64,000 nucleotides of DNA from Gemmatimonadota bacterium. GTDB lineage: Bacteria > Gemmatimonadota > Gemmatimonadetes > Longimicrobiales > Gaopeijiaceae. Positions 1,382 to 6,609 of this stretch are shown in pieces. Where the stretch lies: contig JAOTVA010000006.1 in assembly GCA_029863645.1 (NCBI GenBank), forward strand, positions 1-64,000, given 5' to 3'. Each line of letters opens with the position of its first letter. Position 1 is the stretch's first letter. The notes below the pieces were generated by a model. That model had not been told where the DNA came from. It was given only the letters and a program-made list of their open reading frames with translations, and did not search any database. Position numbers and translations under genes: made by a program.

Positions 1382-2524
1382 TTGGATATTATGCGATATA
1401 TGCCCCCAAACACTGCTCTAGCGCTCGTCGGGACGCTCGTCACGACGCTGTACGGGTGTCAGCAGGTCGATCAACTGCTGCCGTTCGAGATCGATCCGGC
1501 GCAAGGGCAAACTGTTACGGTGACGGCGAACGGCGGCGTCGTCAGCCTACCGCCGAACTTCTCCATAGAATTCTTTCCCGGCTCGCTCCCGGGCTCCGAA
1601 CTGGTGACCGCGCAGCAGCGCCTCGATGCCTTCCCGTTGGATGCCGGCTTGTCGGTTCCGGGTAGGGCATACGATGTCGGTCCAGCTGGGTTAGTGCTCT
1701 CCCCCAGTGCCCCGGCGCGCGTCCAGATCGCCGTACCCGACGAACTGCTCGAGGCGGGCGACGCTCTGACCCTGTCGGTCGCCGTGGTGAGGCCAGACAA
1801 CTCGATCGTGACGGACGCGACGAGTTACGACCTGTCGAACGGGATCCTGACCGCAGACGTCTACGAGCTCGGCCCCATGGCCGCCGTGGTGGCCACCGAC
1901 GCCATCCAGATCGGTGACATTGCGGACGTGCCTCCGCTTGACGGGGGTGCGATTACGCCGGTGTCACCGCCGCCGTCCGCTGGAGGTCCAGCGCGTTCAC
2001 ACCCCGGCGGAGTCGTCTTCTCGGCGAGCTGCTCACCGGGAGAGCGAAGCTGCTTCACGTCAGGCATTGCGAAGATCTGGGTCGACGACGTCGTGCGTCA
2101 GCGGCTTGGAAGCAACTTGGTGTTGCTCAACACGACGGTTGAAGCCAGCATCGACTTCTTCGCGTTCAACGTGAGTTCGCTGCCCGACAGTGCGGTCGGC
2201 TTTTTTCACATCGATGGAGACCTCCGCGCGCGCATCAATGAAGTCGTCGCGAGTCGCGAGGTCGGGGAGGAGATCGCCATTTTTACGGGCAACGGCTCCG
2301 ATCCGAACAATCCGGAAGCAACTGCGATCTCCATCAGCGGTGGCGACATGACCTTTGAGTTCACGTCTCAGGAAGATCCGGAAGTCATCGAGTTCGACGT
2401 CACCGGCGTGGGCACGAGCGACCTGCTCACCATTCAACTCGAAGGTGAGATCGAGTTCGACAACGGCCCGGGGGTGCCCAAGACGATGGGGGCGATCGTC
2501 GCCCACGTGAGGCTTCGCCGATGA
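1382..2524 (+). CDS. Lipoprotein with ZU5-like domain, first gene of outer-membrane trio
   Basis: A 380-residue predicted lipoprotein. I chose the TTG at 1382 because a GGGAGGGG ribosome-binding site lies 6 nt upstream; ATG codons at 1391 and 1400 are alternatives. The signal peptide ends in the lipobox TLYGC. Residues about 35-165 resemble a ZU5-type beta domain (GGVVSLPPNFSIEFFPGSLP, then DVGPAGLVLSPSAPARVQIA), as seen in other secreted bacterial proteins. A proline-rich linker (about 180-200) leads to a C-terminal beta-rich domain I do not recognise. Its stop overlaps the ATG of the barrel gene by 4 nt, which suggests translational coupling. Function unknown; probably surface-exposed or periplasmic. 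Confidence 0.65.
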   Translation: MDIMRYMPPNTALALVGTLVTTLYGCQQVDQLLPFEIDPAQGQTVTVTANGGVVSLPPNFSIEFFPGSLPGSELVTAQQRLDAFPLDAGLSVPGRAYDVGPAGLVLSPSAPARVQIAVPDELLEAGDALTLSVAVVRPDNSIVTDATSYDLSNGILTADVYELGPMAAVVATDAIQIGDIADVPPLDGGAITPVSPPPSAGGPARSHPGGVVFSASCSPGERSCFTSGIAKIWVDDVVRQRLGSNLVLLNTTVEASIDFFAFNVSSLPDSAVGFFHIDGDLRARINEVVASREVGEEIAIFTGNGSDPNNPEATAISISGGDMTFEFTSQEDPEVIEFDVTGVGTSDLLTIQLEGEIEFDNGPGVPKTMGAIVAHVRLRR

Positions 2525-3945
2525 GGCATTGGGCGGCGACTTGCACTGCGTGCCTCTTCGTTCTCTCGCCGAGCGTCGTAGCTGCTCAATTCTCTCCGGG
2601 TGCTCGGTCGGTTGCCATGGGCGGCGCGGGTATGGTGTACTCGTCGGGCGTCGACGCGATCGAGTGGAATCCGGCGAATCTGGCTCTCGAGAGCGGATGG
2701 AACGTCTCGGGTGAGTTCGGGATGTCGGGGCTGATGAGTGGCGTCTCGTGCGACGACATCGGGGCGATCCTCGGCTTCGGTCAGTGCGACTCCCAGCCCT
2801 GGGGATGGAACTTCGACGATGTCGGATGCGATGCGACGGTCACCGCGGGAATTCCCGACAATGGTGTGACCGTGAGCACCAACTCCGAGGGTTTCCTTAC
2901 CGCGTTCGGTGCGGACAAGGCGGGTCTTCCGAAACCCGGCTTGCCGCTGCCCACCATCGGCATCACTGTAGGTTCGGTCGGGGTGCGGGCGCGGAGCCGT
3001 GTCATGACCGAGACGACCGTGAGCAAAGAGCTCATGGGTCTCATGTGTGAAGGCTTCGATCCCGCCATGATCCAGCAGTACCAGGTCGGCAACACCGGCT
3101 TCCGGACGACGTCGTTCTCCGAGGTCACGGCAGGGTACGGTACCACGCTCGGCGGCCGACTCGGCGTCGGTGTTGGCGTGCGGTACGTCATGGGGCACTC
3201 GCTCACCCAGGGGCGCTTCTTCGAGCCGGTGTTGGACCTTACCAACGAGACCATCGAGGTGACCGGCATCGCGGTCGAGTCGACCGGGGGCAGCGGCTAC
3301 GGACTCGATGTCGGCCTCGCGCTCGACCTGATCGCCGGATTGAGGGTGTCAGTGTCAGGCACGAACATCATCCAGAAGATGAACTGGGATGAGTCGCTCG
3401 TGGCTCACGAGGCGACCTACACGGGTTGCTCCACCGGCTCCCCTTCGTGTCCCAATGGCGATGATTTCGACCAACTCGACTTCGAGGACTTCATCAACAG
3501 GTTCGAGGGGGAGCCCATTGCCGGTGGGTCCGTGAGTCTTCCGGTCTACCAGACCGCTCAGGAGCTCTTCAGGGCGGCCTACTTTCCCACCGTGTTTCGC
3601 GCCGGTGCGGGATGGAGGGCAGGTGGGACGACGGTGGAGCTCGTTGGGGCCTCCGTTTCTCCCCGCGGCCGCCAGAAGAACGAGTGGGATGAACGCATCT
3701 CGCTCGGCGTGGAGCAGTGGCTTTGGATTCTCGCGCTGCGCGCCGGCGGCGCCTTGGGGTCGGACGGCCTCCAGGCGATCAACGGTGGCATCGCCTTGGC
3801 GCTCGGTCCGGTCCATCTCGACGTAAGTGGTGGATTCATGTCGGGTGGCTTCGACTTCGCGAGCGGGGTGGTGACACCGCAGAATGTCGAGTACGCCGGT
3901 GCCCAGCTCACCGTGGCCCTGCAGCTTAAGGGAGGTGGCCGTTGA
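2521..3945 (+). CDS. Outer-membrane beta-barrel protein (PorV/FadL-like, DUF5723-like)
   Basis: A 474-residue predicted outer-membrane protein. The signal peptide ends near VVAAQF. Immediately after it comes FSPGARSVAMGGAGMVYSSG followed by a WNPANLA motif, the hallmark N-terminus of FadL/PorV/PorQ-like barrels. The rest is rich in glycine and alternating hydrophobic residues, typical of barrel strands, and ends with a strand-like VALQLKGGGR. Known relatives transport hydrophobic compounds or act as surface-protein shuttles in type IX secretion; which applies here is not determined. It overlaps both neighbours by 4 nt (start within the stop of the upstream lipoprotein, stop within the start of the downstream one), so the three are almost certainly made together. 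Confidence 0.75.
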   Translation: MRHWAATCTACLFVLSPSVVAAQFSPGARSVAMGGAGMVYSSGVDAIEWNPANLALESGWNVSGEFGMSGLMSGVSCDDIGAILGFGQCDSQPWGWNFDDVGCDATVTAGIPDNGVTVSTNSEGFLTAFGADKAGLPKPGLPLPTIGITVGSVGVRARSRVMTETTVSKELMGLMCEGFDPAMIQQYQVGNTGFRTTSFSEVTAGYGTTLGGRLGVGVGVRYVMGHSLTQGRFFEPVLDLTNETIEVTGIAVESTGGSGYGLDVGLALDLIAGLRVSVSGTNIIQKMNWDESLVAHEATYTGCSTGSPSCPNGDDFDQLDFEDFINRFEGEPIAGGSVSLPVYQTAQELFRAAYFPTVFRAGAGWRAGGTTVELVGASVSPRGRQKNEWDERISLGVEQWLWILALRAGGALGSDGLQAINGGIALALGPVHLDVSGGFMSGGFDFASGVVTPQNVEYAGAQLTVALQLKGGGR

Positions 3946-5306
3946 GGTTCCCGACTCGCCGCTTCGCCCTGCTGCTCGCTGTTGGTGTTGCCGCATGCTC
4001 CGATGGCGTGGGGCCTGTTGGGGAGCCGGGGATCGGACTGCAGTTCTCGGTCGAGGTGCCCGCCGCCGTGTCGGCCGCCGAGACTACGGCGCTCGGGACG
4101 GCCTTCGATCAGGTCGACTCGTATCGAATCACCGTGAGGGACAGCGTCACGGGGTCGATCCTCAAGGCGGACACCATTCCCGTCGGCTCTGGACTCACCC
4201 AGCACAGATTCGACTTTGACCTGCCACCTTCGGCGGTGGGCCTGCGGGCGCGGATCAACGTCGTCGGCTTCGCCGGCGCCACTGAGATGTATCGCGCGAC
4301 TGCCGTCACCACGATCCGGGCGGTAACCGGTAGTGCGGCGTCGGTCGTGCTCGCGGTTCGGTACACGGGCCCGGGTTTGCGGGGCACGGTCACCGATGAC
4401 GCCGGAACCGGTCTCGATGGAGTGAGCGTAGGCCTCTATCAGGCGGCGAACCTCATCACGAGCGTCAATACCGAGCCTGATGGCACGTATCTGTTCTTGA
4501 ACGTGACTGCCGGGGCTTACTCGGTAGAACCGACTCCACCCCCGAGCCTGTTCGTGTGCCCGGTCGGTCGTAACGTGGACTTCCAGGCCAGCGAGGCACT
4601 CGTCGCGGACTTCGTGGCCAGTGTCGCACCGTGCGAAATCAATCTGCTCGTCCTCGCCGGGGGTGACTTCGACAACACGCGGACGGTCGCCGACATGTTC
4701 GCCAACACACCGGGCGTCATCACGGACAGGTTCTTCTTCGTCAGCCGGACCCCTGGCCTGAGCACGCTCAGGCAGTACGACGTGGTTCTGCTGTTCACCA
4801 ACGGCATCTTCGACGAGACATCGGTGCTCGGATCGGAGCTCGAGCAGTACGTACAGGTCGGCGGAAACCTCGTGATCGGCTCCTTCTACTATCAGGGTCG
4901 GAGCGATAGCGGGTTCGGCGTGCCGGGCTGGGGAGGACTCGAGAACGTCGATCCGTTCACAGGCGATGTGGACCCGTTCACAGGCCGTGCCGGCGCGACC
5001 TATGCCGCGAATTCGTTGGACGGCGGCAGTATCGTCGCGCACCCGCTGACCCTGGGCGTCGGATCGCTCACTTCAGTCAGTGGCTATAGCGCCGGTGTCC
5101 TAGCCAAGCCGACCGCGACGGTGGTCGCCTCGTGGACCGACGGCGCGCCGCTAATCGGATATCGGATTCTCGGTGGCGGGCAGCGCGTGGTCGGCGTGAG
5201 TCTCTTCCCGGCCGCGGCGGACCCCACTGAGGTAACGGGGGACGTGCAGGTACTCTGGGAGAACGCGATTACCTGGGCGGGCATCGCCGGGGGCCCCACG
5301 CCGTAG
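3942..5306 (+). CDS. Lipoprotein with carboxypeptidase-regulatory-like and GATase-like domains
   Basis: A 454-residue predicted lipoprotein, starting at a TTG (3942) that overlaps the barrel gene's stop. The lipobox is GVAAC at residues 16-20. Residues about 25-140 form a beta-rich domain; about 145-195 is a carboxypeptidase-regulatory-like (CNA-B type) module with GTVTDDAGTGLDGVSVGLY; about 230-450 resembles a class-I glutamine-amidotransferase-like fold (INLLVLAGGD, then QYDVVLLFTNG and VQVGGNLVIGSF) used as a non-catalytic module in many secreted proteins. I see no Cys-His-Glu catalytic triad. A 21-nt tandem duplication encodes VDPFTGD-VDPFTGR. It is probably a surface protein partnering the upstream barrel; function unknown. 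Confidence 0.65.
   Translation: MRFPTRRFALLLAVGVAACSDGVGPVGEPGIGLQFSVEVPAAVSAAETTALGTAFDQVDSYRITVRDSVTGSILKADTIPVGSGLTQHRFDFDLPPSAVGLRARINVVGFAGATEMYRATAVTTIRAVTGSAASVVLAVRYTGPGLRGTVTDDAGTGLDGVSVGLYQAANLITSVNTEPDGTYLFLNVTAGAYSVEPTPPPSLFVCPVGRNVDFQASEALVADFVASVAPCEINLLVLAGGDFDNTRTVADMFANTPGVITDRFFFVSRTPGLSTLRQYDVVLLFTNGIFDETSVLGSELEQYVQVGGNLVIGSFYYQGRSDSGFGVPGWGGLENVDPFTGDVDPFTGRAGATYAANSLDGGSIVAHPLTLGVGSLTSVSGYSAGVLAKPTATVVASWTDGAPLIGYRILGGGQRVVGVSLFPAAADPTEVTGDVQVLWENAITWAGIAGGPTP
4947..4988 (+). repeat. 21-nt tandem duplication within a lipoprotein gene
   Basis: Two adjacent 21-nt units (4947-4967 and 4968-4988) share GATCCGTTCACAGGC/GACCCGTTCACAGGC cores and encode VDPFTGD then VDPFTGR. 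The reading frame is preserved. It looks like a simple slippage duplication in a loop of the GATase-like domain. Confidence 0.7.
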
Positions 5307-5314
5307 ACCGGTCG

Positions 5315-5342
5315 GGCGCCGCTGGCCTAGGTCAGCGGCGCC
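5315..5342. terminator. Bidirectional hairpin between convergent genes
   Basis: A perfect 10-bp stem (GGCGCCGCTG at 5315-5324 with CAGCGGCGCC at 5333-5342) encloses an 8-nt loop. It sits between the convergent lipoprotein and thiolase genes and overlaps the last codons and the stop of the thiolase. No clear T-run follows, so it may need Rho or act only as a stability element. Confidence 0.5.
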
Positions 5343-6609
5343 GCTCGACCACCATCGCGAAGCCCATCCCGCCAGCGGCGCACACGGTGATGAGCCCGAA
5401 CTCGACGTCGCGTCTCGCCATCTCGTTCAGGATCGTGAGGGTGAGACGACCGCCCGTAGCTCCGAACGGGTGACCGATCGAGAGTGAGCCGCCCATGACG
5501 TTGATCACGTCGATGTCGGGATGCCCGACGGCCTCGCTGCGGCCCAACTCCTCCTCCGCGAACTTCTTGGACGAGAGCGCCTGAAGGTTGGACAGCACCT
5601 GGGCGGCGAACGCTTCGTGCATCTCCATGAGTCCGATGTCGCGCATGGTGAGGCCCGCCCGGTCAAGCGCAAGCGGGGCCGCGTAAGCCGGTCCCTGGAG
5701 GAGCTGACCCGCAGGATCGAGCGCGGTCCACGCCCAGCTGCGCACGTAGCCCATGGGCTCGATGCCCTCCGCCGCGGCCAGATCGTCTCGCATGAGCACG
5801 AGCGCGGACGCCCCGTCGGTCAGCGGGGAGGCATTCCCCGCTGTGACGGAGCCGTGTTTTCTGTCGAAGACCGGCCGGAGCATCTCGAGCTTCTCCGGCG
5901 TCGTGTCCATGCGGATGCCGTTGTCCTTGACGATGACCTTCTCGAAGTCTGGCGGCACGTAGACCGGAACGATCTCGGCGGTAAGGCGCCCGTCCTGGGT
6001 GCCGGCCGCTGCCAGCCGATGGGACCGCAGCGCCCAGTCGTCCTGTGCCTCCCGTGAGATTCCGTTTTCCTTGGCCATTCGCTCGGCGGACTCACCCATC
6101 GATTCACCGGTCGTAGGCTCGGCGATCGCCGGCTGCACAGGGATCAGGTCCCTGGGCCGCACAGCGCGAAATGGGGAGAGCTTCTGGCCGAGCGTCTTGC
6201 CCTTCGAAGCCGCGACCAGGCTCTTCGAGAGTACGTCACTCACCGTAATCGGGACGTGCGAGAGTGACTCGGCTCCCCCCGCCATGACCACGTCCGCCTG
6301 TCCGACCTCGATCATCTGGACCGCGTCAGTGATCGCCTGGTTCGCCGATGAGCAGGCTCGCGACACAGTGACCGCCGGAACGGTCTTCGGAAGCACAGCG
6401 AGCCCAACCTCGCGCGCAATGTTCGGAGCCTTGGGGTCGTGTACCACCGTGCCGAATACGAGCTGGTCGATGCGGTCTCCCTTCAGGCCGCTCCGGGCCA
6501 ATGCGTCGCGGACGGCGACCTTGCCGAGCTCGATGGCCGATAGGTCGGCGAACACGGTTCCCGACCGAGAGAATGGAGTTCGGCATCCTGCGACGATGGC
6601 GGTCTTCAT
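5332..6609 (-). CDS. fadI: Acetyl-CoA acyltransferase (3-ketoacyl-CoA thiolase, FadI type)
   Basis: A 425-residue thiolase that cleaves 3-ketoacyl-CoA to acetyl-CoA and a shortened acyl-CoA in beta-oxidation. All catalytic elements are visible: nucleophilic Cys86 in SRACSSANQ, the MHEAFAAQ His, the GHPFGATGGR motif (His380) and the acid/base Cys410 in CAAGGMG. The length and the loop between the catalytic halves fit FadI (about 436 residues in E. coli) better than shorter biosynthetic acetyltransferases. A partner FadJ-type multifunctional subunit is not in the window. The gene stands alone on the minus strand; its upstream end faces the membrane-protein gene at 6730, so the 120-nt gap should hold divergent promoters. 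Confidence 0.9.
   Translation of the reverse strand: MKTAIVAGCRTPFSRSGTVFADLSAIELGKVAVRDALARSGLKGDRIDQLVFGTVVHDPKAPNIAREVGLAVLPKTVPAVTVSRACSSANQAITDAVQMIEVGQADVVMAGGAESLSHVPITVSDVLSKSLVAASKGKTLGQKLSPFRAVRPRDLIPVQPAIAEPTTGESMGESAERMAKENGISREAQDDWALRSHRLAAAGTQDGRLTAEIVPVYVPPDFEKVIVKDNGIRMDTTPEKLEMLRPVFDRKHGSVTAGNASPLTDGASALVLMRDDLAAAEGIEPMGYVRSWAWTALDPAGQLLQGPAYAAPLALDRAGLTMRDIGLMEMHEAFAAQVLSNLQALSSKKFAEEELGRSEAVGHPDIDVINVMGGSLSIGHPFGATGGRLTLTILNEMARRDVEFGLITVCAAGGMGFAMVVERRR

Follow-up and report, generated by a model that had tools for sequence, protein, structure and literature searches.

Introduction

Within the 64 000-nucleotide stretch of Gemmatimonadota DNA analysed here (hereafter the window; the source draft genome comprises 3.9 Mb in 269 contigs and is 86% complete), three consecutive genes, A, B and C, each overlap the next by a few nucleotides. 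A and C encode lipoproteins and B encodes an outer-membrane barrel. The locus raises the question of whether the three products work together and, if so, as what kind of assembly. By analogy, the trio is most likely to be a surface or outer-membrane complex in which a lipoprotein would dock to a barrel in the manner of BamH and BamG, without being BamG–BamH itself. The trio probably forms such a complex at the cell surface, and the best-known relatives of this kind have only recently been found in other bacteria.

In most phyla outside Proteobacteria and Bacteroidota it is an open question how lipoproteins arrive at the outward side of the outer membrane and are retained there, and a pair of genes in which the lipoprotein has a short, private and conserved tail offers a compact case for a direct test of tail recognition.

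Arrangement of the genes

Genes A (1391–2524), B (2521–3945) and C (3942–5306) all lie on the + strand with successive 4 nt overlaps, and the ORF coordinates bear out the initial annotation on this point. The ATG at 1391 is a likelier start for A than the TTG at 1382, as the cross-genome alignment begins at the ATG. The features of the locus are as follows.

1391–2524, + strand: gene A, encoding a 377-aa lipoprotein that is weakly ZU5-like (ORF, orthologues)
2521–2524, + strand: A/B overlap, 4 nt (ATGA), read from the ORFs and recurring in other genomes
2521–3945, + strand: gene B, encoding a 474-aa outer-membrane barrel of the FadL fold with DUF5723 (Pfam, structure model)
3930–3935, + strand: GGGAGG, Shine–Dalgarno-like, within the end of B and separated by 6 nt from the TTG start of C (direct reading)
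3942–3945, + strand: B/C overlap, 4 nt (TTGA), read from the ORFs and recurring in other genomes
3942–5306, + strand: gene C, encoding a 454-aa lipoprotein, with a TTG start and lipidated Cys19 (ORF, orthologues)
5310–5350, no strand assigned: strong hairpin without a T run between C and the convergent thiolase gene (−33.5 kcal/mol, z −3.17)

A promoter scan found nothing. The hairpin at 5310–5350, which the terminator scan did not list, is a possible candidate for a bidirectional terminator.

Among the ten genomes in which the junctions were read, the overlap is 4 nt at 10/10 A/B junctions and at 9/10 B/C junctions, the exception being G133 with a B/C overlap of 1 nt. All three genes are under purifying selection, with dN/dS values of 0.18–0.28 for A, 0.14–0.18 for B and 0.16–0.29 for C that are only rough owing to a dS of about 1 or more; the adjacent thiolase gene gives 0.06–0.08. 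With its recurring overlaps and purifying selection, the three-gene arrangement exceeds chance.

Distribution, neighbourhood and loss

A is found at 200 bits or more in 14 of the 154 genomes of the order, including G017, in which it has an internal stop. B is adjacent to A in 11 of these 14 (G000, G001, G002, G011, G131, G132, G133, G136, G137, G044 and G151), and A stands without an adjacent B in three: G039, where B lies elsewhere on another contig, G038, where a fragment of B is left, and G017. In G135, a contig carrying B and C stops short of A. Ten genomes, from three genera of one family, have C after B (G000–G002, G011, G131–G133 and G135–G137), with the contig ending inside C in G131 and G133 and with C broken in G002 (by a frame change plus a stop) and in G137.

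Of 395 genomes sampled from the phylum, 25 have a match to A with an E value of 1e-12 or better. The only long match outside the order (101 bits) is in G296, from a different family, and there too B follows A; 13 other genomes outside the order contain partial matches, mostly to the ZU5-like part. The G296 pair (L156:7012–9448) sits between genes that we take to be ruvA-like and ruvB-like. The ruvA and ruvB genes usually adjoin, and the position of the pair suggests that A–B moves as a unit. Since A–B occurs alone in two other families with differing neighbours, while the order A–B–C is found in the three genera of one family, the A–B core is the older part, to which C was added later. Conservation of gene order, which the initial annotation had put forward as a check on a three-part unit, is thus seen for the core pair A–B, and the three-part unit is confined to a single family.

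In two genera the module is flanked by thioesterase and thiolase genes (Pfam); A–B carriers elsewhere lie in several unrelated neighbourhoods. G003 retains both flanking genes around a relic (L052:6787–8100) in which the first part of A is fused to a mid-portion of C with two stops, A and B having been lost. G017 and G091 each have a scrap of C at the thioesterase/thiolase site and a broken A at a second site, which is the place where G011 carries an intact module; these pieces at two places (L051 and L054 in G017; L118 and L119 in G091) point to two former copies. Both A and B are broken in G147. Relics are present in at least five genomes, so that the module is dispensable and has been lost repeatedly. 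The thioesterase and thiolase were considered as functional partners and rejected, as both persist after loss of the module in G003, G017 and G091.

The barrel and the case for uptake

B matches DUF5723 (Pfam PF18990) with 41.6 bits, above the gathering score of 26.8, and the domain is present in 17/17 aligned B members. The structure model of B (mean pLDDT of 77.5) has the FadL, TodX, CymD and TbuX channels as its top structural matches, with Z scores of 25–29 for FadL-family channels, 26 for PorV, 23–25 for BamG and 18 or less for other barrels. The model therefore upholds the FadL fold of what had initially been described as a PorV/FadL-like barrel. The genome's best PorV/PorQ match is another protein (L154:695–1693). 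Similarity of the modelled fold to FadL cannot separate a transporter from a scaffold, because PorV and BamG score close by. At the sequence level B is 10–16% identical to the FadL, TodX and CymD channels, and Pfam Toluene_X matches only 2/17 members of the B family, with E values of 0.23 or worse. One short motif is strictly kept and resembles the NPA motif of FadL itself, which is placed in the N-terminal region by the titles of PDB mutant entries:

2668–2682, + strand: NPANL in B, invariant in 24 B rows

In a tree of 25 B proteins, linkage to A requires at least two changes, and none of 500 shuffles (0/500) gave a number as low. The sisters of A-linked B proteins in this tree are solo B genes, several of which adjoin genes that are presumably lepA-like. 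A search for residues characteristic of A-linked B proteins, from which G048 (near-identical to G050 and one of ten solo tree rows) was left out, gave three sites (F234, E235 and G383) versus five in the reverse control and hence no signal. Residues 234–235 are FE at a strand end and occur in at least 12 of the 13 A-linked rows, in G039 and also in one solo B.

These properties of B bear on the main rival to a docking complex, according to which B would be a FadL-type uptake channel, A and C would capture a hydrophobic substrate, and the thioesterase and thiolase would use the product. The top structural matches and the invariant NPANL agree with such a role, as does the fact that B has no N-terminal extension of the BamG kind to occupy the lateral opening; B thus shares with the FadL, TodX and CymD channels the fold, the conserved NPA and the absence of an extension, but differs from them in that two lipoproteins share its operon. 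The enzyme genes stand beside the module in two genera, yet they persist where it has been lost (G003, G017 and G091) and other carriers have other neighbours. With the fold similarity itself ambiguous, PorV and BamG scoring close by, we consider uptake to be rather unlikely.

The conserved tail of A

Gene A encodes a lipobox (...TLYG followed by Cys, by direct reading), in agreement with its initial description as a ZU5-like lipoprotein. The ZU5 part of that description is weak: Pfam ZU5 matches 5/13 members of the A family at E values of up to 1 (best E of 0.002), the window's A not among them, and an A profile searched against the PDB matched the ZU5 domain of ZO-1 weakly, at E 0.19. Two features of A are distinguished.

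1457–1486, + strand: lipidated Cys and tail C-x-Q-x-x-Q-x-L-P-F of A (alignment conservation)
1523–1726, + strand: ZU5-like stretch of A, residues 45–112 (weak profile matches)

The conserved tail of A, as read from the alignment, is the strongest new clue to the module. Residues 23–32, from the lipidated Cys onward, form the top ten-residue window of A, with a mean column conservation of 0.746 compared with 0.48–0.57 in the remaining mature regions. The controls were C and the remaining windows of A, and the equivalent window of C has a conservation of 0.55 versus a mean of 0.634, ranking about 340th of 445. The corresponding DNA pattern derives from the alignment of A proteins, which makes its presence in A expected; the result is its absence elsewhere. 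In 154 genomes the pattern has 13 matches, 12 of which are A or A relics (the relics being in G017 and G091), while the 13th is not a lipoprotein start and has no preceding signal peptide; the pattern read backward, as a control, has two matches. With one non-A match in 154 genomes, a role of the tail as a general sorting signal is ruled out. The full-length A genes of G136, G038 and G151 fall outside the pattern, whose match cannot be expected in G135, where A lies beyond the contig.

The same data weigh on the proposal that A and C are ordinary lipoproteins, facing the periplasm or acting independently, that merely share an operon with a barrel. That A has no B next to it in G038, G039 and G017, and that the A–B pairs of other families lack C, would fit this proposal. 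The private tail, however, is unusually conserved, the overlaps are kept, and A–B adjacency recurs in unrelated neighbourhoods; moreover, in G038, where the adjacent B is only a fragment, the tail of A has drifted to CEPEASLLPS (n = 1). We regard ordinary lipoproteins as quite unlikely.

The second lipoprotein, C

C has a lipobox of the form ...GVAA followed by Cys (direct reading) and two further domains.

4377–4580, + strand: CarboxypepD_reg/SdrD-B-like domain of C, residues 146–213 (profile matches)
4632–5291, + strand: ThuA/GATase1/IFT52-like domain of C, residues 231–450, without the nucleophile Cys (structure model)

CarboxypepD_reg and SdrD_B match 9/9 C members. In the model of C (pLDDT of 79.0), residues 231–450 match STM3548 (Z of 19.8), ThuA-like 1t0b (18.1), GATase1-like 3rht (17.7) and IFT52 (15.8). 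The only cysteines of C are the lipid site and residues 206 and 231, with one further Cys in the signal peptide of G011. The nucleophile-elbow Cys is absent, as no Cys follows C231 in the C-terminal domain in 9/9 rows (two of them truncated at contig ends, and one representing the part of a broken gene that is still open), and amidotransferase chemistry is therefore unlikely. Although the fold is common to the GATase1-like domains of ThuA, STM3548 and IFT52 (Z of 15.8–19.8), that of C differs in being part of a lipoprotein and, lacking the Cys, in being unlikely to have an enzymatic role. The carboxypeptidase-regulatory and catalytically incomplete GATase-like domains initially assigned to C are thus both recovered, the former by profile in 9/9 members and the latter by the model.

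Named records with relatives of C are Gemmatimonadota MAGs at 6/7 loci; the seventh locus is from Neomarinimicrobiota and has only the C-terminal domain in common. There, a secreted protein (L126:2907–3752) has a domain with 39% identity to that of C, with no A or B on its short contig.

Comparison with BamG–BamH and type IX secretion

In the excerpts of two reports from 2025 (PMC12611786, PMC12578637), BamG is described as a FadL-family barrel, BamH as a surface lipoprotein that inserts its conserved N terminus as a wedge between strands of BamG, and BamG2–BamH2 as forming a putative operon in Bacteroidota. The module likewise combines a FadL-fold barrel with a lipoprotein that has a highly conserved lipid-proximal N terminus. 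The resemblance, which we treat as an analogy, lies in the arrangement: unlike BamG–BamH, the A–B module is sporadic, and A and C carry other domains. The B model superimposes on BamG (9n2d_B) with a Z of 24.6 and an r.m.s.d. of 4.3 for 316 aligned residues. It lacks the N-terminal extension of BamG (residues 23–37 in BtBamG, as given in the excerpt of PMC12578637), residue 22 of B, at about the predicted mature start, aligning with BamG residue 35 or 38.

Membership of B in the BamG family was rejected and BamG kept as an analogy, given the weak score against the NCBI BamG model (E 0.16, 11 bits, below the 250-bit cut-off) and a better candidate elsewhere in the genome (L155:3981–5150, the best match, at 62 bits also under the 250-bit cut-off). 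Profile comparison of B with this candidate gave no similarity (probability of 1.9). A was likewise rejected as a relative of BamH, as hhalign against the lipoprotein neighbouring the BamG candidate found nothing (probability of 0.4). According to the excerpt of PMC12578637, surface lipoproteins of Bacteroidota carry two or more acidic residues among the six that follow the Cys, versus one each in the window's A (CQQVDQL) and C (CSDGVGP); some A and C orthologues have two or three. This feature may not hold in Gemmatimonadota.

PorV and PorQ of type IX secretion (T9SS) have the same FadL fold as B. The N-terminal region of B matches the PorV/PorQ family with an E value of 6.5e-9 and 35.8 bits, below the 90-bit cut-off, and B reaches 19.8 of the 250 bits of the PorV equivalog, also below the cut-off. 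Assignment of B as PorV was rejected on these scores and because a family member lies elsewhere in the genome; PorV, like BamG, was kept as an analogy. No T9SS gene was seen beside A–B–C. A barrel acting as a surface anchor has a precedent in PorP/SprF-like barrels, which anchor type B CTD proteins (excerpt of PMC9143113); their partners are T9SS cargo with CTDs, whereas those of B are lipoproteins. It is very unlikely that the module is an alternative BAM or T9SS accessory (BamG2H2-like) assembling a few surface proteins: B shares its fold class with BamG and PorV, and a BamG candidate, a PorV/PorQ-family protein and an SprA-like fragment are also encoded in the genome, but the module is sporadic and often lost, unlike a core machine, the BamG model gives B an E value of only 0.16, and no conserved client gene was seen beside A–B.

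A literature search on DUF5723 found no paper, and the sole match for a bacterial ZU5 domain with an outer-membrane lipoprotein concerns polymorphic toxins. Among the matches listed for Gemmatimonadota FadL/PorV, none contains the word Gemmatimonadota. No named three-part system was found in the literature on DUF5723, ZU5 lipoproteins, Gemmatimonadota FadL/PorV or GATase-like/IFT52/GIFT.

A possible docking complex

The reading we prefer, held tentatively and with somewhat less than even confidence, is that A–B–C is an accessory outer-membrane complex in which the barrel would dock A by its tail and C would serve as a head. B would provide a FadL-fold transmembrane platform, and A would be held on it by its acylated, conserved N-terminal tail, just as BamH wedges into BamG. 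C, which joined the pair in one family, would be a second lipoprotein presenting a non-enzymatic ThuA/IFT52-like head on a β-sandwich stalk, the head probably binding a ligand or glycan. The stoichiometric complex envisaged in the initial annotation is plausible. The annotation's further suggestion, of a barrel delivering lipoproteins to the surface, seems, by analogy, to fit the sequence evidence less well than tail docking in the style of BamH and BamG.

The docking complex is favoured by the adjacency of A and B in 11 of the 14 genomes of the order that carry a full-length A and in G296, in several unrelated neighbourhoods, and by the kept overlaps, the conserved private tail and the FadL fold common to BamG and PorV. 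Counted against it are the lack in B of the BamG extension and of profile likeness to the BamG candidate, the single acidic residues of the window's A and C, the three of 14 genomes with A and no adjacent B, and the number of A-linked B residues (three), which is no larger than in the reverse control (five).

It is unlikely, although worth stating, that A and B are instead a private FadL-fold pair outside BAM and T9SS, in which B would recognise the tail and export or lock A, with C as an exchangeable head; if true, the pair would be a small self-contained surface-display module outside Bacteroidota. Under the preferred docking complex, the idea of the barrel as a scaffold (BamG, PorV, PorP) would extend beyond core machines to dispensable accessory modules.

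Related loci in the genome

Three other loci of the genome have related components. The BamG candidate (L155:2608–5150, G000:C171) overlaps an upstream lipoprotein gene by 4 nt, a layout like that of A–B, and the locus adjoins two MiaB-family genes. The PorV/PorQ-family protein (L154:695–1693, G000:C215) scores just above the family cut-off at 90.8 bits. The SprA-like fragment (L153:2–2281, G000:C49) stands at a contig start beside a PilB gene and matches TIGR04189 with an E value of 4.2e-17 (60.7 of 200 bits, under the cut-off); its sequence gives a hint of a T9SS-like translocon in Gemmatimonadota.
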